DNA from: an uncultured Nesterenkonia sp. | Lineage (GTDB): Bacteria; Actinomycetota; Actinomycetes; Actinomycetales; Micrococcaceae | NCBI GenBank assembly: GCA_947494195.1 | Contig: CANLUC010000001.1 | Span: 62,001 to 126,000, forward strand | Direction of reading: 5' to 3' | DNA: 64,000 bases | Shown: positions 40,060 through 51,840 of the stretch, one piece after another | Layout of the letters: each line of letters opens with the position of its first letter | How positions within the stretch are numbered: position 1 is the first letter of the stretch | Notes under the pieces: generated by a model | Seen by the model: the letters and a program-made list of their open reading frames with translations, nothing else | Databases searched by the model: none | Told to the model about the DNA's origin: nothing | Translations under genes and position numbers: made by a program

Positions 40060-40908
40060 CTAGGGGCTCTGCGGCACGGTGAGCCGGCCGACGTCGTCGC
40101 CCAGGGACCGGATCAGGTCCTCCACCGTCTCAGCGCAGCGCAGCAGGTGCGGAAGCGTGCGCTTCACGGATTCCGCTGCGGACTCCCGGCCGGCGGAGAT
40201 CGAGGTGTTCAGCGAGAGCAGGATGGAGCCGTGGGTGTCGCGCACAGGCACCGCCACCGAGCGCAGGCCCTCCTCGAGCTCCTCATCCACCACCGCATAC
40301 CCGTCCGCGCGGACGCCGGTGATGATGCCGTGCAGCTGCTCCGGATCGGTGACCGTGCGCCGGGTGAATGCGGTGCGCGGCATCGCCTGCAGCCGGTGCC
40401 GCAGGGCCTCGTCGTCGAACTCGGCCAGCAGCACCCGTCCCATGGAGGTCACGAAGGCGGGGAGCTTGGTGCCCAGCGCGAGGTCGATGCGCATGATGCG
40501 CCGAGTGTGCACGCGGCAGACGTACATCACCTCATCCCCTACCAGCAGCGCGGCGGAACACGACTCGGCCAGCTGCACCGAGAGCTCCCCGAGGGAGGGC
40601 TGCAGCAGCTCGTGCCAGCCCCTCCCCGACCAATATCCCTGCCCGAGGCCCAGCACCTTCGGCGTCAGCTCGAAGACCCGGCCATCGGTGTAGGCGTATC
40701 CCTCGTGCACCAGGGTCAGCAGCATGCGCCGGGCGGTGGCCCGACTGACGCCGCTGCGCCGTGCCACCTCGGAGAGCGTGAGCTTCGGCTCGGCCGCGGA
40801 GAAGGACTCCAGCACCTTGAGCCCGGTGGACAGCGAGCGCACAAACTCGTTGCGCGTGGCGGCCGGCACGGTCGCCTGCACAGAGTCCTGCTGCTGGTCC
40901 TGATCCAT
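40060..40908 (-). CDS. IclR-family regulator, PcaR/PobR-like
   Basis: Protein of 282 residues: an N-terminal winged helix (LTLSEVARRSGVSRATARR, about 43-61) and a C-terminal effector domain (AESCSAALLVGDEVMYVCRV, VTSMGRVLLAE and GLRSVAVPVRDTHGSILLSL). The effector-domain sequence style is that of the protocatechuate group (PcaR/PcaU/PobR), consistent with the adjoining pcaF-pcaI-pcaJ operon and the divergent quiC. TAGGAT 6 nt before the ATG and no ribosome site suggest a leaderless mRNA. Confidence 0.88.
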   Translation of the reverse strand: MDQDQQQDSVQATVPAATRNEFVRSLSTGLKVLESFSAAEPKLTLSEVARRSGVSRATARRMLLTLVHEGYAYTDGRVFELTPKVLGLGQGYWSGRGWHELLQPSLGELSVQLAESCSAALLVGDEVMYVCRVHTRRIMRIDLALGTKLPAFVTSMGRVLLAEFDDEALRHRLQAMPRTAFTRRTVTDPEQLHGIITGVRADGYAVVDEELEEGLRSVAVPVRDTHGSILLSLNTSISAGRESAAESVKRTLPHLLRCAETVEDLIRSLGDDVGRLTVPQSP

Positions 40909-40942: not shown

Positions 40943-41014
40943 GTTGAGGGGCGGATTCTCCGAGCATCTGCCGCGGTTTTCGGGCTCAACTGCTCGGAAT
41001 TTCCGCCGCTCAAC
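40943..41014. repeat. Intergenic palindrome, family A copy 1
   Basis: Arms 40943-40966 and 40991-41014 pair at 20 of 24 positions, starting GTTGAGGGGCGGATTCTCCG; the loop is 24 nt. It shares GCGGTTTTCG in the loop and TGCTCGGA in the right arm with copies 2 and 3. Unlike them it lies between divergent genes (iclR and quiC), so it is not simply a terminator. Confidence 0.8.
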
Positions 41015-41063: not shown

Positions 41064-41083
41064 AATGTAATGTTTGGTACATT
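41064..41083 (+). promoter_or_regulatory. quiC operator overlapping the -10 box
   Basis: A 20-bp imperfect palindrome, AATGTA-N7-GTACATT. Its right end is TACATT (41078-41083), a -10 box 6 nt before the quiC ATG. It matches the site at the TRAP operon promoter in the pattern AATGTA-N6-GGTACRTT (13 of 20 bases). A bound repressor would cover the -10 box. The TetR protein at 51.2 kb is the best candidate. Confidence 0.6.
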
Positions 41084-41089
41084 GCGAGC

Positions 41090-42877
41090 ATGCGCACCTC
41101 TATCGCGACTGTCTGCCTCTCCGGAAGCCTCACCGACAAACTCCACGCCTGCGCCGATGCAGGCTTCGACGGGGTCGAGATCATGGATGCGGACCTCACC
41201 GTCTCCTACGAGTCCCCCGAGGAGATCCGGGCCCTGTGCCAGCGCCTGGGACTGAGCATCGACCTCTTCCAGCCCTTCCGAGACTTCGAAGGGGTCTCCG
41301 AGGAGCTGCTCGCCGAGAATCTGCGTCGCGCCGAGGCCAAGTTCCAGCTCATGAACCGGCTGGGCGCCGACACCATCCTGGTCTGCAGCAACGCCGGGAC
41401 CGCGACCATCGACGACGACGACGTGGCCGCCGCCCAGCTCGGGGCCCTGGCGGACCTTGCCGCCGGATATGGCATCCGCATCGCCTATGAGGCGCTGGCC
41501 TGGGGACGCTACGTCAATGACTACCGGCACGCGTGGCGACTGGTGCAGCTGGCGGACCGCGCGAATCTCGGCACCTGCCTGGACAGCTTCCACATCCTGG
41601 CGCGCGGACACGACCCCGCCGCGATCGAGGACATCCACGGTGAGAAGATCTTCTTCCTCCAGCTTGCCGATGCGCCCCAGCTCGACATGGACGTCCTTTC
41701 CTGGAGCCGGCACCATCGCCTGTTCCCCGGCGAAGGCTCCTTCGACCTGAGCAGCTTCCTCACCCATGTGCTCAAGGCCGGATACACCGGACCGCTCTCG
41801 CTGGAAGTCTTCAACGACACCTTCCGGCAGACCGATGTCACCGGTACGGCCGCACATGCCCGACGGTCCTTGACCTGGCTGGCGGATCGCACCTCGGAGG
41901 CCAACGGCTGGAGCGACGATCGCCTCCCCGCCGCGCAGGCCCCGCGCAGCGTCGACTTCGTGGAGATCACCGGCAGCGACCTCGGTCAGGCCGACGAGAC
42001 CCTGAACCAGCTCGGCTTCAGCTTCCGCGGCAAGCACCGCACCAAACAGGTCCGGCTCTGGACCATGGGCTCGACCCGGGTCATCCTCAACGAGCAGAGC
42101 CAGCAGCCCGAGCCTCACCTCTCCGCGATCGGGCTGCTGGTCGACGACGCCGGCCAGGCCCTTGCTCGCGGAGCCGCCCTGGGCGCCCCGGTCGTGTTCC
42201 GCCGGACCTACGCCGGGGACCACGAGCTCAAGGCCCTGGGAGCCCCGGATGGCACGGTGATCTATTGGAACGACGCTCCAGCCGAGGACACCTGGGTCAG
42301 CGAATTCCACGGCGGGCAGCCAGCGCTGGACTCCACGCACGCCGTGGACCACATCAACCTCTCCTATCGCTGGCACGAGTTTGAGGAGACGGTGCTCTTC
42401 TTCCACAGCGTGCTGGGGCTCGAGGCGCAGGCCCCGGAGAACGTGCCCAGCCCGCAGGGGCTGATGCGCAGCCAGGTCATGCGCACCGCGGACGGCACGG
42501 TCCGTCTGCCGCTGAACCTTGCACCTCCCACCGCCCCCCTGCCGCCCCGGCATATCGCCGTGACCTGCACCGATATCATCGGACTCGCGCAGGACGCACA
42601 TGACCGAGGGCTGCATTTCCTCAAGATCCCGAACAACTATTACGCCGACCTCGAGGCCCGCTTCGGGCTGGACGCTGAGTATCTGGCACGGCTCAAGGAG
42701 CTCAACCTGCTCTACGACCGCGATGAGCAGGGCGAGTTCATCCACTTCTATACGCCGAGCATTGGCGGACTGTTCCTGGAGATGGTCCAGCGCGTCGGCG
42801 CCTACGACGGCTACGGGGCGGCCAACGCCCCAGTCCGCCTCGCCGCCCAGCGCCGCCAGCCCCAGCTCCTGCGCTAG
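41090..42877 (+). CDS. quiC: 3-dehydroshikimate dehydratase fused to an HPPD-like domain
   Basis: Protein of about 595 residues. Residues 1-275 form an AP-endonuclease-2/xylose-isomerase TIM barrel with metal ligands in IAYEALAWGRYVNDY, GTCLDSFHILARG and LSLEVFND. From about 295 on there is a VOC domain pair like 4-hydroxyphenylpyruvate dioxygenase, with metal ligands in AVDHINLSYRW, FIHFYTPS and LFLEMVQR. This two-part form is known for bacterial QuiC-type dehydratases, which turn 3-dehydroshikimate into protocatechuate. The start at 41090 is the leaderless position behind TACATT; no ribosome site is present. The pca genes and the shikimate dehydrogenase nearby fit this role. Confidence 0.87.
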   Translation: MRTSIATVCLSGSLTDKLHACADAGFDGVEIMDADLTVSYESPEEIRALCQRLGLSIDLFQPFRDFEGVSEELLAENLRRAEAKFQLMNRLGADTILVCSNAGTATIDDDDVAAAQLGALADLAAGYGIRIAYEALAWGRYVNDYRHAWRLVQLADRANLGTCLDSFHILARGHDPAAIEDIHGEKIFFLQLADAPQLDMDVLSWSRHHRLFPGEGSFDLSSFLTHVLKAGYTGPLSLEVFNDTFRQTDVTGTAAHARRSLTWLADRTSEANGWSDDRLPAAQAPRSVDFVEITGSDLGQADETLNQLGFSFRGKHRTKQVRLWTMGSTRVILNEQSQQPEPHLSAIGLLVDDAGQALARGAALGAPVVFRRTYAGDHELKALGAPDGTVIYWNDAPAEDTWVSEFHGGQPALDSTHAVDHINLSYRWHEFEETVLFFHSVLGLEAQAPENVPSPQGLMRSQVMRTADGTVRLPLNLAPPTAPLPPRHIAVTCTDIIGLAQDAHDRGLHFLKIPNNYYADLEARFGLDAEYLARLKELNLLYDRDEQGEFIHFYTPSIGGLFLEMVQRVGAYDGYGAANAPVRLAAQRRQPQLLR

Positions 42878-42902
42878 CCCCCGATGCGTTGAACTCCTCT
42901 GC

Positions 42903-42974
42903 GTTGAGCGGCGGATTCTCCGACTACTTCATGCGGTTTTCGCCTCGAAGTGCTCGTAGATTCCGCCGCTCAAG
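42903..42974. repeat. Intergenic palindrome, family A copy 2
   Basis: Arms 42903-42930 and 42947-42974 pair at 23 of 28 positions (left arm begins GTTGAGCGGCGGATTCTCCG). The 16-nt loop includes GCGGTTTTCG. It lies between quiC and the GltS-type gene, both on the + strand. A stray GCGTTGA just upstream (42886-42892) looks like a partial extra left end. Confidence 0.8.
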
Positions 42975-43102
42975 GCCGGGGGCGGCTCGGGGCGCACGGA
43001 CCTCCAGAGCCCCTCAACCCTGGTGACCCGCGGCTGAAGTGTGGTTTCATTCTCCCCACATGCAGGGCCGCCGGCGCGGCCCACTTCGGAGAGGGGCATC
43101 CG

Positions 43103-44578
43103 ATGAGTCCAGAGGTAGTCGGGTTCGCGATCGTGCTGCTGGCATCGGTGATGCTGCTCGGCAAGTACGTCCGCGTCAAAGTGCCATTCATCCAGAAGCT
43201 GCTCCTGCCCAGCGCCATCATCGCCGGGTTCATCGGCCTCGTCGTCGGCCCGCAGGTGATTGGCCGGCTCGGCGAACCTCTCGGCTGGGCCTGGCTGGAA
43301 GATGGCGGGCTGCTCACCAGCGGGATCGTGGACATCTGGGCGGAGCTGCCCGGTCTGCTGATCTCGGTCGTCTTCGCCACGCTGTTCCTGGGATCGCGGA
43401 TCCCCTCCCCCGTCCGCGTCGCCAAGCTGGTCGGCCCGCAGCTGTCGATCGGCGTGGCCTACGGCTCGGGCCAGTACGTGGTGGGCATCCTGCTGGGCCT
43501 GCTGGTGCTCTCGCCGCTGCTCGGGGTGGATCCCGTATTCGGCGCGCTGATCGAGATCGCCTTCGAGGGCGGACACGGCACGGCCGCGGGCATGCAGCCG
43601 GCCTTCGAGGACATGGGCATCCCCGAGGCCACCGACCTCGCACTGGCCATCGCCACCGTGGGTCTGGTCTCCGGAATCATCATCGGCATCGCGGTGATCA
43701 ACTGGGGCGTGCGCACCGGTCGCACGCGCGTCATCAAGAACGTGTCCGAGCAGTCGAAGTCGGAGCTGCGCGGCCTCTACAGCGACGACGAGCGCGTCTC
43801 CACCGGGCGGATGACCTCACGCCCCGGGTCGATCGAACCGTTGACGCTGCACGTCGCCGTCGTCGGCCTGGCGATCATCATCGGGTGGCTCATCCTCGAG
43901 GGGCTGATCTGGGTCGAGAATCAGCTGTGGGGCCTGCCCGGATCGGTCTGGTCCGAGGAGGGCCTCACGCTGCTCGGCTACGTGCCGCTCTTCCCACTGG
44001 CGATGATCGGTGGCGTGATAATCCAGGTGATCCTCGATCGCACCGGGAACACCAGCCTGCTGGACCACGAGACCATGAAGCGGATCCAGGGGCTGTCGCT
44101 GGACATCCTGATCGTGGCCGCGCTGGCGACGATCTCGCTGGATGTCATCGCCAGCTACTGGGAGACCTTCTTGATCCTCTCGATCGCTGGAATCCTCTTC
44201 TGCGCCACGATCCTGGTGTACTTCACCCCGCGGATCATCCCGGAGTTCTGGCTCGAGCGCGGCATCGCCGACTTCGGCCAGTCGATGGGCGTGACGGCGA
44301 CCGGCCTGGCGCTGCTGCGCGTCGCCGACCCCGACGACGAGTCCCCGGCTCTGGAGGCCTTCGGCTATAAGCAATTGTTCTTCGAGCCGTTCTTCGGCGG
44401 CGGACTGATCACCGCGCTGTCGATCCCGCTGATGGTCGCCACCGGCAGCGTGTACATCGTGCTGATACCCATGGCGGTGCTGTTCATTGCCTCGCTGGTG
44501 GCCGGCAGGATCTACTACAAGGGAGTGCGCTCAGGACGCTGGTCCGGGCCTCCCGCGAAGGTCGATGAGCCCACGTAG
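43103..44578 (+). CDS. GltS-type sodium/glutamate symporter family protein
   Basis: Membrane protein of 491 residues with about 11-12 segments. Family marks are KLLLPSAIIAGFIGLVVGPQ near the N-terminus and FEGGHGTAAGMQPAFEDMG, the glycine-rich loop of GltS carriers. The central hydrophilic loop has SEQSKSELRGLYSDDERVS. E. coli GltS has 401 residues, so this is a longer, actinobacterial form. Glutamate is the family substrate, but its place between quiC and the flavoprotein suggests another carboxylate, perhaps an aromatic or hydroaromatic acid (inference). GGAGAGG precedes the ATG. Confidence 0.8.
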   Translation: MSPEVVGFAIVLLASVMLLGKYVRVKVPFIQKLLLPSAIIAGFIGLVVGPQVIGRLGEPLGWAWLEDGGLLTSGIVDIWAELPGLLISVVFATLFLGSRIPSPVRVAKLVGPQLSIGVAYGSGQYVVGILLGLLVLSPLLGVDPVFGALIEIAFEGGHGTAAGMQPAFEDMGIPEATDLALAIATVGLVSGIIIGIAVINWGVRTGRTRVIKNVSEQSKSELRGLYSDDERVSTGRMTSRPGSIEPLTLHVAVVGLAIIIGWLILEGLIWVENQLWGLPGSVWSEEGLTLLGYVPLFPLAMIGGVIIQVILDRTGNTSLLDHETMKRIQGLSLDILIVAALATISLDVIASYWETFLILSIAGILFCATILVYFTPRIIPEFWLERGIADFGQSMGVTATGLALLRVADPDDESPALEAFGYKQLFFEPFFGGGLITALSIPLMVATGSVYIVLIPMAVLFIASLVAGRIYYKGVRSGRWSGPPAKVDEPT

Positions 44579-44614
44579 ACGGGAGGCCCCCACCCCAGCA
44601 CCCCCCACCCCAGC

Positions 44615-44686
44615 GTTGAGCGGCGGATTCTCCGACTAATTCATGCGGTTTTCGGCCTGAATTGCTCGGATTTTCCGCCCCTCAAC
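44615..44686. repeat. Intergenic palindrome, family A copy 3
   Basis: Arms 44615-44643 and 44658-44686 pair at 23 of 29 positions; the loop is 14 nt (TGCGGTTTTCGGCC). It starts GTTGAGCGGCGGATTCTCCG like copy 2. It lies between the convergent ends of the GltS-type gene and the flavoprotein gene. Confidence 0.85.
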
Positions 44687-44717
44687 GCAGGGTGGTGTGG
44701 CGTCGCAACGCGGTTGC

Positions 44718-46163
44718 TCACACCGGGCGGCCGTAGGTCTCGAGCAGGCGCAGCCAGACCTCGTTGACCGTGGGGAACGCCGGGACCGCGTGCCAGAGCC
44801 GGTCCAGCGGGACCTCGGCCGTGACCGCGATCGTGGCGGCCTGCAGCAGCTCGCTGACCTCGGATCCCACGAAGGTCATGCCGAGGATGACCTTTCGGTC
44901 CTCGTCGACCACCATGCGCGCAGTCCCCGGGTGGGGCTGGGACTTCAGCGCCGTCCCGGCGACGTCGCCCAGCTCGTAGTCCACCACCCGAACCGTGTAG
45001 CCGGCCTCGCGGGCCGCCGCGGAGGTGAGTCCCACGGACGCGACCTCGGGTTCGGTGAAGGTGACCTGCGGGACGGCCGCATGATCGGCGGTGGCCACAT
45101 GAGCTCCCCAGGGCTGGTCCTGCACCGCAGCCCCCTTCGCGCGTGCCACGATCACGTCTCCCGCCGCACGGGCCTGGTACTTGCCCTGGTGGGTCAGCAG
45201 TGCCCGGTGGGTCACATCGCCCACCGCGTAGAGCCAGTCGAAGCCGGGCACCTGCATGGTGTCGTCGGTCTCGATCCAGGTCCCCGGCTCGAGCCCGATG
45301 CTCTCCAGTCCCAGGTCAGCGGTGCGCGGCGAGCGCCCGGTCGCGGCGAGCACCTCCTGAGCCAAGACATCCTCTCCCACCGAGACCTCGATCCGCACGC
45401 CTTCGGCCGAGCGGGAGACTCGTTCGGGAGTGGTGTTCAGGCGCAGCGTGACACCTTGGTCCTCCAACGCCTTGCCGACGAGCTCGCCGGCGAAGGGCTC
45501 CATCCCGCCGAGCAGCCCGCTGCGCGCGATGACCGTGACCTCGGCCCCCAGGGAGGCGTAGGCGCTGGCCATCTCGGCCGCGACCACGCCGCCGCCGATG
45601 ATGGCGAGGCTCTTCGGGATGGCATGCGCGCTGGTGGCTTCGCGGCTGGTCCAGGGGTGAGCCTCGGCCAGTCCTTCGATGGGAGCGATGGCCGCCGCGG
45701 ACCCGGTCGCGAGGGTCACTGCGTGGCGCGCGGTGAGCTGCGTCTGCGATCCGTCCTCGGCGGTGACGGTGACCTGCCTGGGCCCGGTGAGCCGGCCCTG
45801 CCCGCGGATCAGGCTGATCCCGGCGCCGTCGAGCCACTTCGCCTGGCCGTCGTCCTTCCATCCGCTGGTGAAGGAGTCGCGGCGCGCCAGGACGGCCTCG
45901 ACGTCGAGGGTCCCGGTCACCGCTTCGGCCGCGCCGGGCACCGCCTGGGCGGAGCGCAGCGCCTGCGGGGATCGGAGCAGCGCCTTTGAGGGGATGCAGG
46001 CCCAGTAGGAGCATTCACCGCCCACGAGTTCGGCCTCGACGACGACGACGCTCAGCCCGCCCTGGACCGCACGGTCGGCCGCGTTCTCCCCCACGGCTCC
46101 ACCGCCGATCACAATGACGTCGAACTCGGCGCTCTGGGCCGGTGCTTCTGTCTGAGATTCCAT
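44718..46163 (-). CDS. FAD-dependent disulfide oxidoreductase (lipoamide-dehydrogenase-like)
   Basis: Protein of 481 residues: FAD loop DVIVIGGGAVGENAADRAV, redox pair C-x4-C in GGECSYWACIPSKALL, NAD loop LAIIGGGVVAAEMASAYASL, and WLYAVGDVTHRALLTHQGKY. The C-terminal catalytic motif, HPTxxE in true lipoamide dehydrogenases, reads FPTVNE here, so the proton-accepting histidine is missing. It may reduce another disulfide or a quinone. AGGAG precedes ATG 46163; a longer open frame is unsupported. It diverges from the TRAP operon across a shared 206-bp region. Confidence 0.82.
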   Translation of the reverse strand: MESQTEAPAQSAEFDVIVIGGGAVGENAADRAVQGGLSVVVVEAELVGGECSYWACIPSKALLRSPQALRSAQAVPGAAEAVTGTLDVEAVLARRDSFTSGWKDDGQAKWLDGAGISLIRGQGRLTGPRQVTVTAEDGSQTQLTARHAVTLATGSAAAIAPIEGLAEAHPWTSREATSAHAIPKSLAIIGGGVVAAEMASAYASLGAEVTVIARSGLLGGMEPFAGELVGKALEDQGVTLRLNTTPERVSRSAEGVRIEVSVGEDVLAQEVLAATGRSPRTADLGLESIGLEPGTWIETDDTMQVPGFDWLYAVGDVTHRALLTHQGKYQARAAGDVIVARAKGAAVQDQPWGAHVATADHAAVPQVTFTEPEVASVGLTSAAAREAGYTVRVVDYELGDVAGTALKSQPHPGTARMVVDEDRKVILGMTFVGSEVSELLQAATIAVTAEVPLDRLWHAVPAFPTVNEVWLRLLETYGRPV

Positions 46164-46240
46164 TGCTGCTCCTGGTGAATAGGTGAGAAACGTGGACCTG
46201 CCGGGTACAACGTGAGCCACCGCGCAATTGCTTCCCGGGC

Positions 46241-46256
46241 ATCGCGACAGCGCGAT
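46241..46256. promoter_or_regulatory. Short perfect palindrome upstream of the flavoprotein gene
   Basis: ATCGCG-ACAG-CGCGAT, a perfect 6-bp inverted repeat with a 4-nt centre, lies in the divergent region between the flavoprotein gene and the TRAP operon. It could be a second regulator site; GC-rich palindromes of this size also occur by chance. Confidence 0.3.
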
Positions 46257-46289
46257 CAACAGAGACCGCGAGACCCTTGAGGGTGATCT

Positions 46290-46318
46290 TTGACACCTAA
46301 TGTACGAACCGGTACGTT
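46290..46318 (+). promoter_or_regulatory. TRAP operon promoter with operator in spacer and -10
   Basis: A perfect -35 TTGACA (46290-46295), a 17-bp spacer and a -10 TACGTT (46313-46318) lie 51 bp before dctQ. A 20-bp palindrome (46299-46318, AATGTAC-N6-GTACGTT) fills the spacer and the -10 box. It is the partner of the quiC site at 41064. The geometry is that of a simple repressor-occluded promoter. AAAGGA precedes the dctQ GTG. Confidence 0.65.
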
Positions 46319-46369
46319 TATTCCAGTCGTTGTGGCGCACGCCACTTTTATCGTGATCAAAGGAACCCC

Positions 46370-46923
46370 GTGACCCACACCAGGAAACCCCTGAGCCGCC
46401 GAGTGGTGGACGTGCTCACGCGCATCGAGCTCGGCTTCGCCGGCATCATGCTTCTTGTGATCCTCGTCCTGGTCTTCACCCAGGCCGCGCAGCGCTACAC
46501 CCCGTTCGAGGGCCTGGCCTGGACCGGCGAGATCTCTCGTTTCGGCCTGGCCTGGATGACCTTCTCCGTGGCCGGAGTGCTCATCACCCTGCGCGGACAC
46601 ATCGCGCTTGAAGTGGTCGACACGCTTCCCGCGCCGCGGCTCATCCGCGTGGTGCAGGTCGGCTCGCTGCTCCTCGTGGCGCTGATCGCACTGGGCCTGA
46701 GCAACGAGGCCTGGGGGCTGATCCAGACCCAGGGGCCTTGAGCTCCCCCGTGCTGCGCATGCCCATGTCCGTGGTCTACATCCCGGTGCTCACCGGGATG
46801 ATCAGCACCGTCCTGCGTTCACTGGTCGCCGCGTGGATGATCGCCAAGCACGGCCCGATCCTTCCGGCCGCTGACCATGACGCGGCGGAGCTGCGCACCA
46901 ACACCGTGGAGGACCACTCGTGA
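46370..46923 (+). pseudogene. dctQ: TRAP small permease subunit, frameshifted
   Basis: The reading frame gives the first 123 residues of a DctQ protein (four-helix membrane subunit; TRIELGFAGIMLLVILVLVF, EISRFGLAWMTFSVAGVLI, RGHIALEVVD), then stops at TGA 46739-46741. The expected C-terminus continues at once in the -1 frame (SSPVLRMPMSVVYIPVLTG, VLRSLVAAWMI) to 46923, where it overlaps the dctM GTG by 4 bp as an intact gene would. Adding one G to the GGGG run at 46732-46735 restores a 184-residue protein of normal DctQ length. It is either a real mutation, a phase-variable tract or a sequencing error. Translation of the second half from TTG (TTGA overlap) is less likely. Confidence 0.75.
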
Positions 46924-48194
46924 CACTCATCCTTCTGGGCGTTGCCATCGCCCTCCTGCTCATCCTGCGCGTGCCGGTCGCCTTTGCGTTCCTCGGCCCC
47001 TCGCTGGTCTACATGCTCTTAGACGGACAGTCCTCCGGCACCAGCCTGCGCCAGGTGACCAACGCGATCCAGAGCTTCCCGCTGCTGGCGGTGCCGCTGT
47101 TCGTGTTCCTCGGAACCCTCGCCAACCACGCAGGCCTGGCGGATCGACTCTTCCGCTTCGCGATGGCCGCCCTGGCCCGGATTCGCGGCAACCTCGGTTA
47201 TGTGACCGTCGGCGCCAGTGTGGGCTTCTCCTGGATGAGCGGCTCCGCCGTGGCCGATGCGGCCGCGCTGGGCAAGGTGCAGATCCCGGCCATGCTGCGC
47301 AACGGCTACACCCGCCGGTTCGCCACGGGCCTCTCCGCCGCCTCCTCGCTGATCGCCCCGGTCATGCCGCCGAGCATCCCAGCGGTCATCTACGCCGGGC
47401 TCGCCGCCGCCTCCACCGGCGCGCTCTTCGCCGCCTCCGTGGTCCCCGCGCTGCTCATGGCCGTCGGGCTCTGCGTGGTGGTCTGGATCCTGGTGCGGCG
47501 CAACCCCAATCTCACCGCCGGACGCTTCGACCGCCAGGAGCTGATCAGCTCCACCAAGGGCGTGCTGCTGCCCGCCGTGACGCCGGTGATCATCCTCGGG
47601 GGCATCCTGGGCGGGCTGTTCACGCCGACCGAGGCGGCCGCCGTCGCCGTCTTCTGGGTCCTGCTGATCTCGCTGATCCAGCGCTCGCTCTCCTTCAAGG
47701 GCTTCCTTGCCGCCATCCGTGAGACCGCGCTGACCACGGGTGCGATCATGCTGATCGTCGCCTCCGCGGCGCTGCTCGGTCACATCATGGCGCTGGAGCG
47801 TCTGCCGCAGCTGCTGACCGAAACGCTGCTGAGCATCACCGAGAATCCTACGGTGTTCCTGCTGCTGGTCGCGCTGCTGATGCTGATTCTGGGCACCGTC
47901 ATCGACGCCACCGCGATCCTGGTGCTCGTGGTGCCGATCCTGCTGCCGATCTCCATGCAGTATCAGATCGATCCGATCGTGCTCGGCGTGGTGCTGATCA
48001 TCTCGCTGATGATCGGGCTGCTGACTCCCCCGGTGGGCACGGCGCTGTTCGTGACCGCCTCGGTCTCGGACACCCGCGTGGGTGAGGTCTTCAAGGGCGC
48101 TCTGCCCTTCGCGATGCCCGCGGTGATCGTGCTGCTGCTGGTCATCTTCTTCCCCGGCGCGCTGATGTTCTTCCCGGAGGTGCTCGGACTGTGA
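46920..48194 (+). CDS. dctM: TRAP large permease subunit
   Basis: Membrane protein of 424 residues, the standard DctM length, with about 12-13 segments. Typical stretches are SFPLLAVPLFVFLGTLANHA, GFSWMSGSAVADAAALGKV, AASSLIAPVMPPSIPAVIYA, GLFTPTEAAAVAVFW and LLTPPVGTALFVTASVSD. It moves the substrate held by DctP with sodium. The start is GTG overlapping the upstream gene; the stop overlaps the aroE-like GTG by 4 bp, so the genes are tightly coupled. Confidence 0.94.
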   Translation: MTLILLGVAIALLLILRVPVAFAFLGPSLVYMLLDGQSSGTSLRQVTNAIQSFPLLAVPLFVFLGTLANHAGLADRLFRFAMAALARIRGNLGYVTVGASVGFSWMSGSAVADAAALGKVQIPAMLRNGYTRRFATGLSAASSLIAPVMPPSIPAVIYAGLAAASTGALFAASVVPALLMAVGLCVVVWILVRRNPNLTAGRFDRQELISSTKGVLLPAVTPVIILGGILGGLFTPTEAAAVAVFWVLLISLIQRSLSFKGFLAAIRETALTTGAIMLIVASAALLGHIMALERLPQLLTETLLSITENPTVFLLLVALLMLILGTVIDATAILVLVVPILLPISMQYQIDPIVLGVVLIISLMIGLLTPPVGTALFVTASVSDTRVGEVFKGALPFAMPAVIVLLLVIFFPGALMFFPEVLGL

Positions 48195-49108
48195 CCGAGA
48201 CGCCGAGAAGCACCGACACGGGGCGCAGCATCCTGGCTGGCCTCATCGGCCACGGCGTCGGCCCCTCGCTGACCCCCACGATGCATGAGCTCGAGGGCTC
48301 GCGCCACGGGATGCGCTACATCTACCGCAGCATCGAGTTCGCCGGCGGCGAGGGCTCCCAGGGGGAGCTGGGCCGGCTGCTGCAGATGGCCCAGCGACTG
48401 AGTTTCAACGGGCTGAACATCACCTTCCCCGCGAAGCAGTCGGTGGTGCCGCTGCTCGATGAGCTCGGCCCCTCCGCCGCCATGATCGGCGCGGTCAACA
48501 CCGTGGTCTTCACCGACGACGGCGCCGCGGTCGGCCACAACACCGACGTCACCGGCTTCCGAGCCTGCATCGACGACGGCCTGGGCGAGACCGCCTGCGG
48601 CCACGTGGTGCTGGTGGGATCCGGCGGCGCGGGCTCCGCGGTGGCGCATGCGCTGGTCATGCGCGGAGTTTCAAGCCTGAGCCTTGTGGACGTGGATCTC
48701 GAGAAGAGCGCCACCCTGGCTCGCAGCCTGCACACCACGCATGGCTTCACCGCTGAGCGGGCTCAACCCGAGCACCTGCCTCAGCTTCTCCAGCGTGCCG
48801 ACGGCGTGGTCAACGCCACCCCCTTCGGCATGGCCCACCACCCGGGATCACCCTTCGACACCGAGCTGCTGCAGCCTCGGCACTGGGTGGCCGATGTCGT
48901 GTACCGGCCGGTGGACACCGTGCTGCTTCGCGCAGCCGAAGAACGCGGCTGCCTGACGGTCTCGGGACTCGGCATGGCCATGCACCAGGCCGCCGACGCG
49001 TTCGAGATCTTCACCGGGGAGACCGCAGACCGCGTGTCCATGCTCGATGACCTCAATGCCCTGATCGAAGCCGAATCACCACACCCTCGTGCAACGATGC
49101 ACCGATGA
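48191..49108 (+). CDS. aroE: Shikimate/quinate 5-dehydrogenase, catabolic type
   Basis: Protein of 305 residues. The catalytic pair is K82 in NGLNITFPAKQS and D119 in GHNTDVTGF; GAVNTVVF, VNATPFGMA and SGLGMAMHQAADAFEIFTG are the other family marks. The nucleotide loop VLVGSGGAGSAVAHAL is followed by an acidic strand end (SLVDVD), which favours NAD over NADP, as in catabolic quinate/shikimate dehydrogenases. Start GTG overlaps dctM. Its place inside the TRAP operon and near quiC suggests oxidation of shikimate to 3-dehydroshikimate for breakdown, not aromatic synthesis. Confidence 0.88.
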   Translation: MTETPRSTDTGRSILAGLIGHGVGPSLTPTMHELEGSRHGMRYIYRSIEFAGGEGSQGELGRLLQMAQRLSFNGLNITFPAKQSVVPLLDELGPSAAMIGAVNTVVFTDDGAAVGHNTDVTGFRACIDDGLGETACGHVVLVGSGGAGSAVAHALVMRGVSSLSLVDVDLEKSATLARSLHTTHGFTAERAQPEHLPQLLQRADGVVNATPFGMAHHPGSPFDTELLQPRHWVADVVYRPVDTVLLRAAEERGCLTVSGLGMAMHQAADAFEIFTGETADRVSMLDDLNALIEAESPHPRATMHR

Positions 49109-49122
49109 AAGGAACACCCACC

Positions 49123-50154
49123 ATGTCCAAGCGATACAACACCCTGAGCAAGGCCGCCGTCATCGCCGCCCTGCCGATCCTCGGTCTCACTGCCTGCGGC
49201 GGAGGCGACGGGGAAGCCAGCGGCGACGGCGGAGGCAGCGGTGAGTCGATGGAGCTGACCCTGGCGCACAGCTACAACGACGACCAGCCCCAGGCCCGCT
49301 GCGGCGCCGACGTGATCAAGGAAGAGGTCGAGGCCGCCGACGTCGGACTCACCATCGAGATCTTCGGCTCCAGCCAGCTCGGCGGTGACGCCGACCGCAT
49401 CGCCTCCGTCGCCTCCGGGGACGTGGACATCGACATCCAGGGCGCCTCCGCGCTGGGTGCCGTCTACGAACCGATCAGCGTGCTCGACGCCGCCTACGCC
49501 TTCGACGACGCCGATCACCTCGCCCGCTTCATGGAGAGCGAAGAGGGAACCCAGGTCGTGGAGGACTTCGCCGAGTCCGCCGGCATCCAGACCTTGGGCG
49601 CATGGTCGGCAGGCGCCCGCCACTTCACCTCCAACGAGCCCATCAGCTCCCCCGAGGACCTCGAAGGCATGCAGATCCGCTTCCCCGGCTCCCCGCAGTT
49701 CCTGATGAACGCCGAAGCCATGGGTGCCAACGCGGTGGAGGTCGCCTATGAGGAGCTCTACCTGTCGCTCCAGCAGGGCGCCGTGGACGGTCAGGAGAAC
49801 CCGATCACCAACATCGAGTCCGAAAACCTCAATGAGGTCCAGGACTACCTGAACCTCAGCTCGCACCAGCTGAACACCAACCTGGTGATCATGTCCGACA
49901 AGTGGAACGACCTCAACGAGGAGCAGCAGGAGGCGCTGACCAGCGCGGTGGAGTCCGCCGTCACTGAGGTGACCGAATGCGTGGCCACGGATGAGGAAGA
50001 GACGCTGGCCGAATGGCGTGACGGCGGTGAGTGGGAGGTCAACGACGATGTCGACGTCGAGGCGTTCCGCGAGATGACCCTCCCGAACCTCGAGGAGGCC
50101 CTTGAGGGCGACTCGCTGGCGACCTTCGAAGCCATCCGCTCCACGAGCGAGTGA
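49123..50154 (+). CDS. dctP: TRAP substrate-binding lipoprotein
   Basis: Protein of 343 residues with a lipoprotein signal (ALPILGLTACGGG) and a Gly/Ser/Asp linker, then the DctP fold: MELTLAHSYNDDQPQ, EIFGSSQLGGDADRIASVAS, the signature around EDLEGMQIRFPGSPQF (with the carboxylate-binding Arg), and LQQGAVDGQENPITNI. Such receptors bind organic acids. AAAGGA precedes ATG 49123; the ATG at 49105 would place the ribosome site inside the gene. Being lipid-anchored suits a Gram-positive cell. Substrate unknown; shikimate is suggested by context. Confidence 0.92.
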   Translation: MSKRYNTLSKAAVIAALPILGLTACGGGDGEASGDGGGSGESMELTLAHSYNDDQPQARCGADVIKEEVEAADVGLTIEIFGSSQLGGDADRIASVASGDVDIDIQGASALGAVYEPISVLDAAYAFDDADHLARFMESEEGTQVVEDFAESAGIQTLGAWSAGARHFTSNEPISSPEDLEGMQIRFPGSPQFLMNAEAMGANAVEVAYEELYLSLQQGAVDGQENPITNIESENLNEVQDYLNLSSHQLNTNLVIMSDKWNDLNEEQQEALTSAVESAVTEVTECVATDEEETLAEWRDGGEWEVNDDVDVEAFREMTLPNLEEALEGDSLATFEAIRSTSE

Positions 50155-50163
50155 TCTGACCCT

Positions 50164-51135
50164 ATGTCCAGCATGGTCCCCACGCTCACCGGAGAGGTGC
50201 CCGGAGATTCCCTCGGCACCACTCTGGTGCATGAGCACCTGATCGTCAGCGACCCGCAGCTGGATCGCGACCTCCCCCACCCGGAGTGGGACGAGGCCGC
50301 AGTCATGGCACGGGCCGAGGCGCAGCTGCAGACGCTGGCGGAGCTGGGCGTAGACACGATCGTGGACCTCACCGTCCCCGGTCTGGGACGAGACGTGCGG
50401 CGGGTCGCCGAGCTGGCCCGCCGCACCTCGATCCGCATCCTGGTGGCCACCGGCTGGTACACCAGCGACGTGCTGCCGCACTTCTTCCGACTCAACGGGC
50501 CGGGCCGGCTGGTGGAGGGCCCCGATCCGCTGATCGAGCTGTTCCTGCGCGACATCCAGCAGGGGATCTCCCGCACGGACCTGCGCGCGGCCATGCTCAA
50601 GGTCTGCTCCGACAGCGCCGGGATCACCGACGACGTGGCGCATGTCTTCACCGCCGCCGCCCAGGCGCACCGCGACACCGGCGTGCCCATCACCACACAC
50701 TCGGACCCCGCCTCACGCGGAGGACTGGAGCAGCAGCGCCTGCTGGGAAGCCTTGGGGTGGACCTGGAACGGGTCGTCATCGGGCACAGCGGCGACTCCA
50801 CCGATCTGGACTACCTGCGCGAACTCGCCGACGCCGGATCCTTCCTCGGCTTCGACCGCTTCGGGATGAGTCACACCGGCTCCGATGAGGACCGCATCCA
50901 GATGCTGCTGACCCTGCTGGAGCTGGGGTACGCCGAGAAGCTGCTGCTCTCCCACGACGCCGCCATGTTCAGCCGCATCACCCCACCCTCCTGGAGGGCT
51001 GTGCACGCGCCGCAGTGGAGCATGGACCACCTGCACCGTCGCGTCCTGCCGCGGCTGCGCACGTCAGGCCTCGACGCCGCCCTCGAACGGCAGCTCCTGG
51101 TCGAAAACCCCCGACGCCTCCTGACAGGGGCATAA
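50164..51135 (+). CDS. Phosphotriesterase-family metal hydrolase
   Basis: Protein of 323 residues of the PTE branch of the amidohydrolases. The complete binuclear metal set can be seen: H23 and H25 in LVHEHLIV, bridging lysine K146 in AMLKVCSD, H179 in PITTHSD, H208 in VVIGHSGD and D265 in LLSHDAAM. Relatives hydrolyse lactones, carboxylic or phosphate esters. It starts 9 bp after dctP and is part of the TRAP operon. It may free or open a shikimate/quinate-related ester or lactone (inference). No strong ribosome site; translation may be coupled to dctP. Confidence 0.86.
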   Translation: MSSMVPTLTGEVPGDSLGTTLVHEHLIVSDPQLDRDLPHPEWDEAAVMARAEAQLQTLAELGVDTIVDLTVPGLGRDVRRVAELARRTSIRILVATGWYTSDVLPHFFRLNGPGRLVEGPDPLIELFLRDIQQGISRTDLRAAMLKVCSDSAGITDDVAHVFTAAAQAHRDTGVPITTHSDPASRGGLEQQRLLGSLGVDLERVVIGHSGDSTDLDYLRELADAGSFLGFDRFGMSHTGSDEDRIQMLLTLLELGYAEKLLLSHDAAMFSRITPPSWRAVHAPQWSMDHLHRRVLPRLRTSGLDAALERQLLVENPRRLLTGA

Positions 51136-51198: not shown

Positions 51199-51840
51199 GT
51201 GACTGAGACGCCGCCCCGCCAGCGCGACGCCGTACGCACTCGAGCCGAGGTGCTTGCCATAGCCACAGAGGTCTTCGCCGATGATGGCTATTCAGGTGCT
51301 CGGATCGATGAGATCGCGCGCCGCACGCGCACCACCAAGCGGATGATCTACTACTACTTCGGGGGCAAGGAACAGCTGTACCTGGCGGTCCTGGACAACG
51401 CCTACCGCGGGATCCGACAGGCCGAACAGACGCTGCAGGTCGACGAGATGAACCCTGTCGACGCGCTGCGCGAGCTGGCGGAGCTGACCTATGAGCACCA
51501 CCTGCGCCATTCGGCCTTCATCCGGCTGGTCTCCATCGAGAACATCCACCGCGGCAAGTACATCCGCAAGCTGGAATCACTCAGCGATCTGGGCCAGCCC
51601 GCGGTGACGATCCTGGACGGCATCATCACCCAGGGCAAGAAGCAGGGCGCCTTCCACGAGGAGGTCAACCCGCTGGACCTGCACCTGTTGATCAGCTCGT
51701 ACTGCGTCTTCCAGGTGGCCAACCGCTACACGTTCAGCTATCTCTTCGACGCGGACTTCACCACGCAGCCGCGCCAAGACCGGATGCGGGGCTTGATCGG
51801 CGACGTCGTCGTCGCCTGGGCCACCGCTCCCACGCGCTGA
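51199..51840 (+). CDS. TetR-family regulator
   Basis: Protein of 213 residues: N-terminal helix-turn-helix (EVLAIATEVFADDGYSGARI, DEIARRTRTTKRMIYYYFGG) and an all-helical ligand domain (HHLRHSAFIRLVSIENIHRG and VANRYTFSYLF). GTG 51199 follows AGGAGG by 9 nt. It closes the TRAP operon direction and is the best candidate to bind the two AATGTA...GTACRTT palindromes; no such palindrome lies in front of tetR itself. Its stop codon lies in the first unit of a 24/25-bp tandem repeat. Confidence 0.9.
   Translation: MTETPPRQRDAVRTRAEVLAIATEVFADDGYSGARIDEIARRTRTTKRMIYYYFGGKEQLYLAVLDNAYRGIRQAEQTLQVDEMNPVDALRELAELTYEHHLRHSAFIRLVSIENIHRGKYIRKLESLSDLGQPAVTILDGIITQGKKQGAFHEEVNPLDLHLLISSYCVFQVANRYTFSYLFDADFTTQPRQDRMRGLIGDVVVAWATAPTR

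Follow-up and report, generated by a model that had tools for sequence, protein, structure and literature searches.

The catabolism of the plant acid shikimate and of quinate in an uncultured Nesterenkonia sp. appears to be controlled by a small local regulon, which we located in a 64,000-nucleotide stretch of its genome (assembly GCA_947494195.1, contig CANLUC010000001.1, positions 62,001 to 126,000), hereafter the window. Two promoters in the window share a palindrome with a consensus near AATGTAC-N6-GTACRTT: that of quiC, which encodes a predicted 3-dehydroshikimate dehydratase, and that of an operon for a TRAP transporter and associated enzymes. From sequence comparisons we judge, with a probability of about 0.88, that a TetR-family protein, encoded at 51199–51840, uses this palindrome as its operator and represses shikimate/quinate catabolism locally. 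For such a repressor with a regulon of its own, one expects a conserved palindrome at neighboring promoters that co-occurs with the regulator, and this combination is found here.

A palindrome at the quiC and TRAP operon promoters

Operator 1 (AATGTAATGTTTGGTACATT) occupies 41064–41083 of the forward strand at the quiC promoter, and operator 2 (AATGTACGAACCGGTACGTT) occupies 46299–46318 of the same strand at the promoter of the TRAP operon. By hand count the two are identical at 13 of 20 bases, and both are inverted repeats; an earlier sequence-only reading of the window had given the same count and the shared pattern AATGTA-N6-GGTACRTT, and direct reading of the sequence bears it out. The repeat of operator 1 is AATGTA-N8-TACATT, with perfect 6-bp arms, and that of operator 2 is AAYGTAC-N6-GTACRTT, with one mismatched pair. 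A scan of the whole genome (2.78 Mb in 27 contigs, 99.91% complete), which that reading had called for, returned exactly two matches to AATGTA-N6-GGTACRTT, namely operators 1 and 2, and the reversed control pattern returned none in the same 2.78 Mb. A looser pattern, AAYGTAMN5RGTACRTT with up to two mismatches, adds one further place genome-wide (G000:C6:70848). Apart from this single stray two-mismatch place, we see no sign of a larger regulon in the genome, and the regulon would comprise the two promoters.

At the TRAP promoter, a perfect TTGACA (46290–46295, forward strand), the likely −35 box, is followed by a 17-nucleotide spacer and TACGTT (46313–46318), so that operator 2 covers the spacer and the probable −10 box exactly as had been claimed. 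This TTGACA-N17-TACRTT arrangement is conserved in the TRAP promoters of the genus: the hexamer is perfect in 9 of 13 and has one mismatch in the other 4, and the spacer measures 17 nucleotides in 12 and 18 in one. At quiC, the right arm of operator 1 (TACATT, 41078–41083) is likewise a likely −10 box, and the hexamer 17 nucleotides 5′ of it, TGGGCC, is a poor −35. Both right arms agree only partly with the TATAAT consensus. The quiC ATG lies at 41090, 6 nucleotides past the end of operator 1; because transcription starting about 7 nucleotides after the −10 box would coincide with this ATG, the quiC mRNA is probably leaderless. The earlier proposal that the right end of each site forms the −10 box agrees with the genus of the window and with some relatives; by eye, it does not extend to the Streptomyces loci described below.

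Among 30 genomes of the genus Nesterenkonia, the tetR gene is present in 15 and quiC in 17. With up to one mismatch allowed, the pattern occurs at the quiC and/or TRAP promoters of 14 of the 15 genomes that carry tetR and in one of the 15 that lack it, G209, a genome with a single pattern match and without a match to quiC. Conservation in relatives that keep these genes had been named beforehand as a point on which the proposal could fail, and the site is kept at the quiC and TRAP promoters of relatives with tetR. The 20-mer of operator 1 is identical in six relatives (L028–L032 and L034) whose upstream flanks have diverged; among more distant species it is identical or nearly so beside upstream flanks that differ strongly. 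Across 12 quiC promoters, the information per column is 1.79 bits in the site, compared with 0.51 in the 30 nucleotides before it and 1.11 in the 30 nucleotides after it, which are mostly coding; across 13 TRAP promoters, the corresponding values are 1.72, 0.74, and 0.78. Left out of these promoter sets were the siteless locus L033, the degenerate quiC site of G123, the genome G297, and, for TRAP, six loci of another genus, g32. Both sites of G297 are present beside quiC and dctQ, on a different contig from tetR.

Distribution of the site across actinobacteria

We surveyed 395 genomes of the family, calling tetR at E ≤ 1e-25 and quiC at E ≤ 1e-80. The former is found in 21 genomes and the latter in 226, including all 21 with tetR. 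By hand count, all 25 exact pattern matches in the set fall in 14 genomes of the window's genus, every one of which carries tetR; no exact match occurs in the 374 family genomes without tetR, 205 of which have quiC. Allowing one mismatch brings the number of matched genomes to 68 of 395, mostly through scattered singles such as the reversed control yields as well. Six of the genomes with tetR (L041–L046) belong to genus g32, and in them the TRAP, phosphotriesterase-family (PTE), and tetR genes stand together without adjoining aroE or quiC; the g32 protein may control uptake only. The TetR ortholog set (A1) comprises 17 of the 21 family orthologs, with L030 (internal stop) and L043, L044, and L047 (split) left out.

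For more distant actinobacteria, we took the best 80 loci among the matches listed, picked by similarity to the TetR protein through fixed recognition-helix peptides, and analyzed 79 of them, since L065 is the same record as genome G321. Their TetR orthologs are 52–69% identical to that of the window. At a cutoff of at least 40% identity, quiC and/or aroE is present in 72 of the 79 loci (quiC in 68, aroE in 63; dctM in 9); six lack all three genes, some of them on short contigs. Within the promoter regions of quiC, aroE, dctQ, and tetR, the palindrome is found in 30, 47, and 58 of the 79 loci at zero, one, and two mismatches, respectively, and 95 permuted palindromes put through the same test reach at most 0, 0, and 2. 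The upstream comparison suggested by the sequence-only reading also places the same palindrome in the intergenic regions between tetR and quiC or aroE of these distant relatives.

The layout of these loci varies. In many from Mycolicibacterium, Microbacterium, Gordonia, and Aeromicrobium, tetR is flanked by quiC and aroE, and sites often occur on both of its sides; most from Streptomyces have one site between tetR and aroE-quiC. By eye, the Streptomyces palindrome comes after a separate −10-like sequence, and thus the overlap with the promoter appears to have changed while the operator stayed. The distance from the site to the quiC start, as extrapolated from alignment, is 6–8 nucleotides at 27 of 37 sites. 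A partial check of three loci turned up a class II dehydroquinase in L073 and L078 and an MFS transporter in L078 and L105, and these genes are consistent with quinate/shikimate catabolism. We also considered a nested second palindrome, offset by 2 bp as for two offset dimers; it is partial in the TRAP sites and, at the other offset, in the aroE sites, and is absent at the quiC sites, and we do not claim it.

Which regulator reads the site

As to LysR-type control, the two regulator genes of the cluster that were scanned belong to the TetR and IclR families: tetR and a gene for an IclR-type, PcaR/PcaU-like protein at 40060–40908, divergent from quiC. An operator of this adjoining IclR protein, which would then co-control quiC, the TRAP operon, and the pca genes, strikes us as very improbable. 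Its appeal lies in the divergent arrangement with quiC, in a match to TIGR02431 (PcaR/PcaU/PobR) just over the cut-off, and in two features described in a published account (PMC8222616), namely the similar GTAC...GTAC shape of some IclR operators, such as that of Rhodococcus CatR, and the quinate/shikimate genes in IclR regulon content. Co-occurrence decides against it, however. The IclR gene is found in 22 of the 30 genus genomes (E ≤ 1e-60), and all 10 of these that lack tetR are siteless; conversely, G321, G331, and G218, the three carriers of tetR in which IclR has no match at that threshold, retain both sites. Because the site follows tetR in both directions, we assign it to the TetR protein and reject the IclR protein as its binder. 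An IclR match of any kind is present in just 5 of the 79 distant loci, none at 40% identity or more.

The sign of control is a separate matter. Some TetR-family proteins activate, and where the operator lies is not in itself proof of the sign; we nonetheless regard it as highly unlikely that the TetR protein binds the site as an activator or dual regulator, because the site lies on the spacer and −10 box, or in Streptomyces beside a −10-like sequence (by eye), where steric repression is expected. Least credible of all is that the 20-mers have been conserved as promoter sequence, for the sake of RNA polymerase and not of a regulator: TTGACA-N17-TACRTT would be plausible as a promoter on its own, but the left arm AATGTA is conserved in a spacer whose sequence polymerase is not expected to read, exact matches are absent from the 205 family genomes with quiC and without tetR, and the Streptomyces palindrome, by eye, lies outside the −10-like sequence.

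Several observations weigh against the palindrome being the operator of a TetR repressor. G276 (locus L033) has tetR and no sites; its TetR protein is kept from residue 14 on, the TRAP genes, the start of the PTE gene, and the 5′ end of quiC are gone, and the locus is a decaying regulon. In G123, the TRAP site is exact and the quiC site is degenerate in the left arm. G326 and G316, the two genomes of the genus with quiC and without tetR, have no site and are only 65% and 82% complete. No site at up to two mismatches is present in the promoters counted at 21 of the 79 distant loci, several of which show related variants by eye; these loci, chosen by TetR similarity and many of them from Streptomyces, are also not independent. 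In the six g32 genomes, the TRAP-promoter site is weaker (measured against AAYGTACN6GTACRTT, two mismatches in five and one in the sixth), quiC is located elsewhere, and the exact site is absent from the genome.

We continue to favor a TetR repressor. Without inducer, a TetR dimer would sit on the spacer and −10 box of the TRAP-aroE-dctP-PTE-tetR promoter and block RNA polymerase, and a dimer would also sit on the −10 box of the leaderless quiC promoter. A pathway compound, for which shikimate, quinate, dehydroshikimate, protocatechuate, and chorismate are candidates, would release the protein; uptake of a presumed pathway substrate, its oxidation to dehydroshikimate, and the formation of protocatechuate by dehydration would then be switched on jointly. 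Since tetR closes the TRAP gene row, as the sequence-only reading had observed, its product would repress its own expression. The small TetR regulon predicted by that reading, linking TRAP-aroE-PTE with quiC, gains support from the two-site genome, from conservation, and from the co-occurrence of site and regulator.

Gene neighborhood and relation to known systems

By Pfam and NCBIfam, the gene order of the cluster is the IclR PcaR/PcaU-type regulator, quiC, a GltS-like symporter, an Lpd/MerA-like oxidoreductase, and dctQ-dctM-aroE-dctP-PTE-tetR. The quiC gene (41090–42877, forward strand, like all genes that follow) encodes a two-domain dehydratase (AP_endonuc_2 plus a glyoxalase/HPPD-like domain) that matches NF042435 (QuiC) at E = 6.6e-159 but falls under the curated cut-off. 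The dctQ gene for the small TRAP permease (46370–46741, 123 residues; Pfam DctQ) is apparently frameshifted in the assembly: within the region 46370–46923, relatives L029 and L039 have no stop at the place of the one at 46741, which points to a frameshift or sequencing error. The frames of the remaining genes of the TRAP row are open. They are dctM, the large TRAP permease (46920–48194; Pfam/NCBIfam); an aroE-like shikimate/quinate dehydrogenase gene (48191–49108; NF009201, E = 1.5e-104, over its cut-off); dctP, the TRAP solute-binding protein (49105–50154; Pfam/NCBIfam); the PTE-family hydrolase gene (50164–51135; PF02126, E = 3.4e-77); and tetR. The PTE-family gene is a frequent companion of TRAP genes and tetR across loci.

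The TetR protein (213 residues) combines a helix-turn-helix domain (PF00440 TetR_N, 48.9 bits with a cut-off of 24) with a TetR_C_29 domain (PF17938, 133.6 bits with a cut-off of 26.2). An AlphaFold model of the protein, moderately confident at a mean pLDDT of 73.1, has the all-helical TetR fold, and its best PDB match is 3npi_A (TM score 0.76); model and fold search speak to family membership only and gave no hint of a ligand.

A second conserved palindrome, TGTGGCGCACGCCACT, lies in the TRAP leader (46331–46346, forward strand) and resembles CRP/GlxR sites. All 13 genus TRAP leaders have its core, GTGRN6YCAC, 12 of them exactly and one with a single mismatch; the core turns up in 32 of 9500 shuffled leaders and in none of the six g32 TRAP leaders. 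An intergenic repeat of about 75 nucleotides with inverted ends (by eye), starting GGCGGATTCTCCG, has heads at 40950, 42910, 44622, and 51916 between cluster genes, and a similar element lies 5′ of quiC in the relative L033.

Taken across loci, we think it likely that the TetR protein represents an actinobacteria-wide class of repressors of shikimate/quinate catabolism, with an operator that has changed little between the window's genus and others as far apart as Mycolicibacterium and Streptomyces and with surroundings that have been rebuilt: MFS uptake exchanged for TRAP uptake, a single operator between divergent genes for two separate ones, and a half-site recruited as a −10 box, which at quiC is that of a leaderless mRNA. 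In the window's genus, the CRP/GlxR-like palindrome would add a possible carbon-source check to the TRAP operon only. An operator that stays constant as promoter layouts change cleanly illustrates how promoters can be rewired around a single regulator. A TetR subfamily of many actinobacterial genera thereby gains a concrete operator, regulon, and pathway, testable by one gel shift, and if the switch responds to the pathway, it is a candidate biosensor part. No TetR regulator of shikimate/quinate catabolism appeared among the matches listed in searches of open papers, which covered titles and the starts of abstracts and mostly missed subscription papers, so absence from print is not established. 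The regulon looks new; its kind, in which a TetR protein represses nearby genes through a palindromic operator, is thoroughly familiar.

Among known systems, local TetR-family repressors, with RutR bound to uracil among the structural matches, share the TetR_N plus C-terminal domain architecture and a palindromic operator at a neighboring catabolic promoter; the protein described here differs in its TetR_C_29 domain, operator, and pathway. Of the solved structures, the nearest is 3npi (DIP1788 of Corynebacterium diphtheriae), whose title gives no function. BP1026B_II1561 of Burkholderia pseudomallei, compared by description and not by sequence, is also a TetR-like regulator tied to shikimate-pathway genes but has to do with biosynthesis rather than catabolism (PMC11358695). 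The IclR-type PcaU/PcaR regulators of protocatechuate genes serve the same downstream pathway, and one such gene adjoins quiC in the window; they differ in fold and in operator consensus (PMC8222616), and the site here tracks tetR. In the literature we encountered, this pathway in actinobacteria is under the regulator QsuR of Corynebacterium glutamicum, which controls qsuABCD, and thus the same catabolic steps, including the two-domain dehydroshikimate dehydratase QsuB (PMC11258901, PMC7442255). Unlike the TetR protein, however, QsuR is described there as an activator of the LysR type that depends on chorismate, and the three operator sites drawn for it lie at one promoter (PMC11258901), whereas the system in Nesterenkonia has one palindrome per promoter at two promoters.

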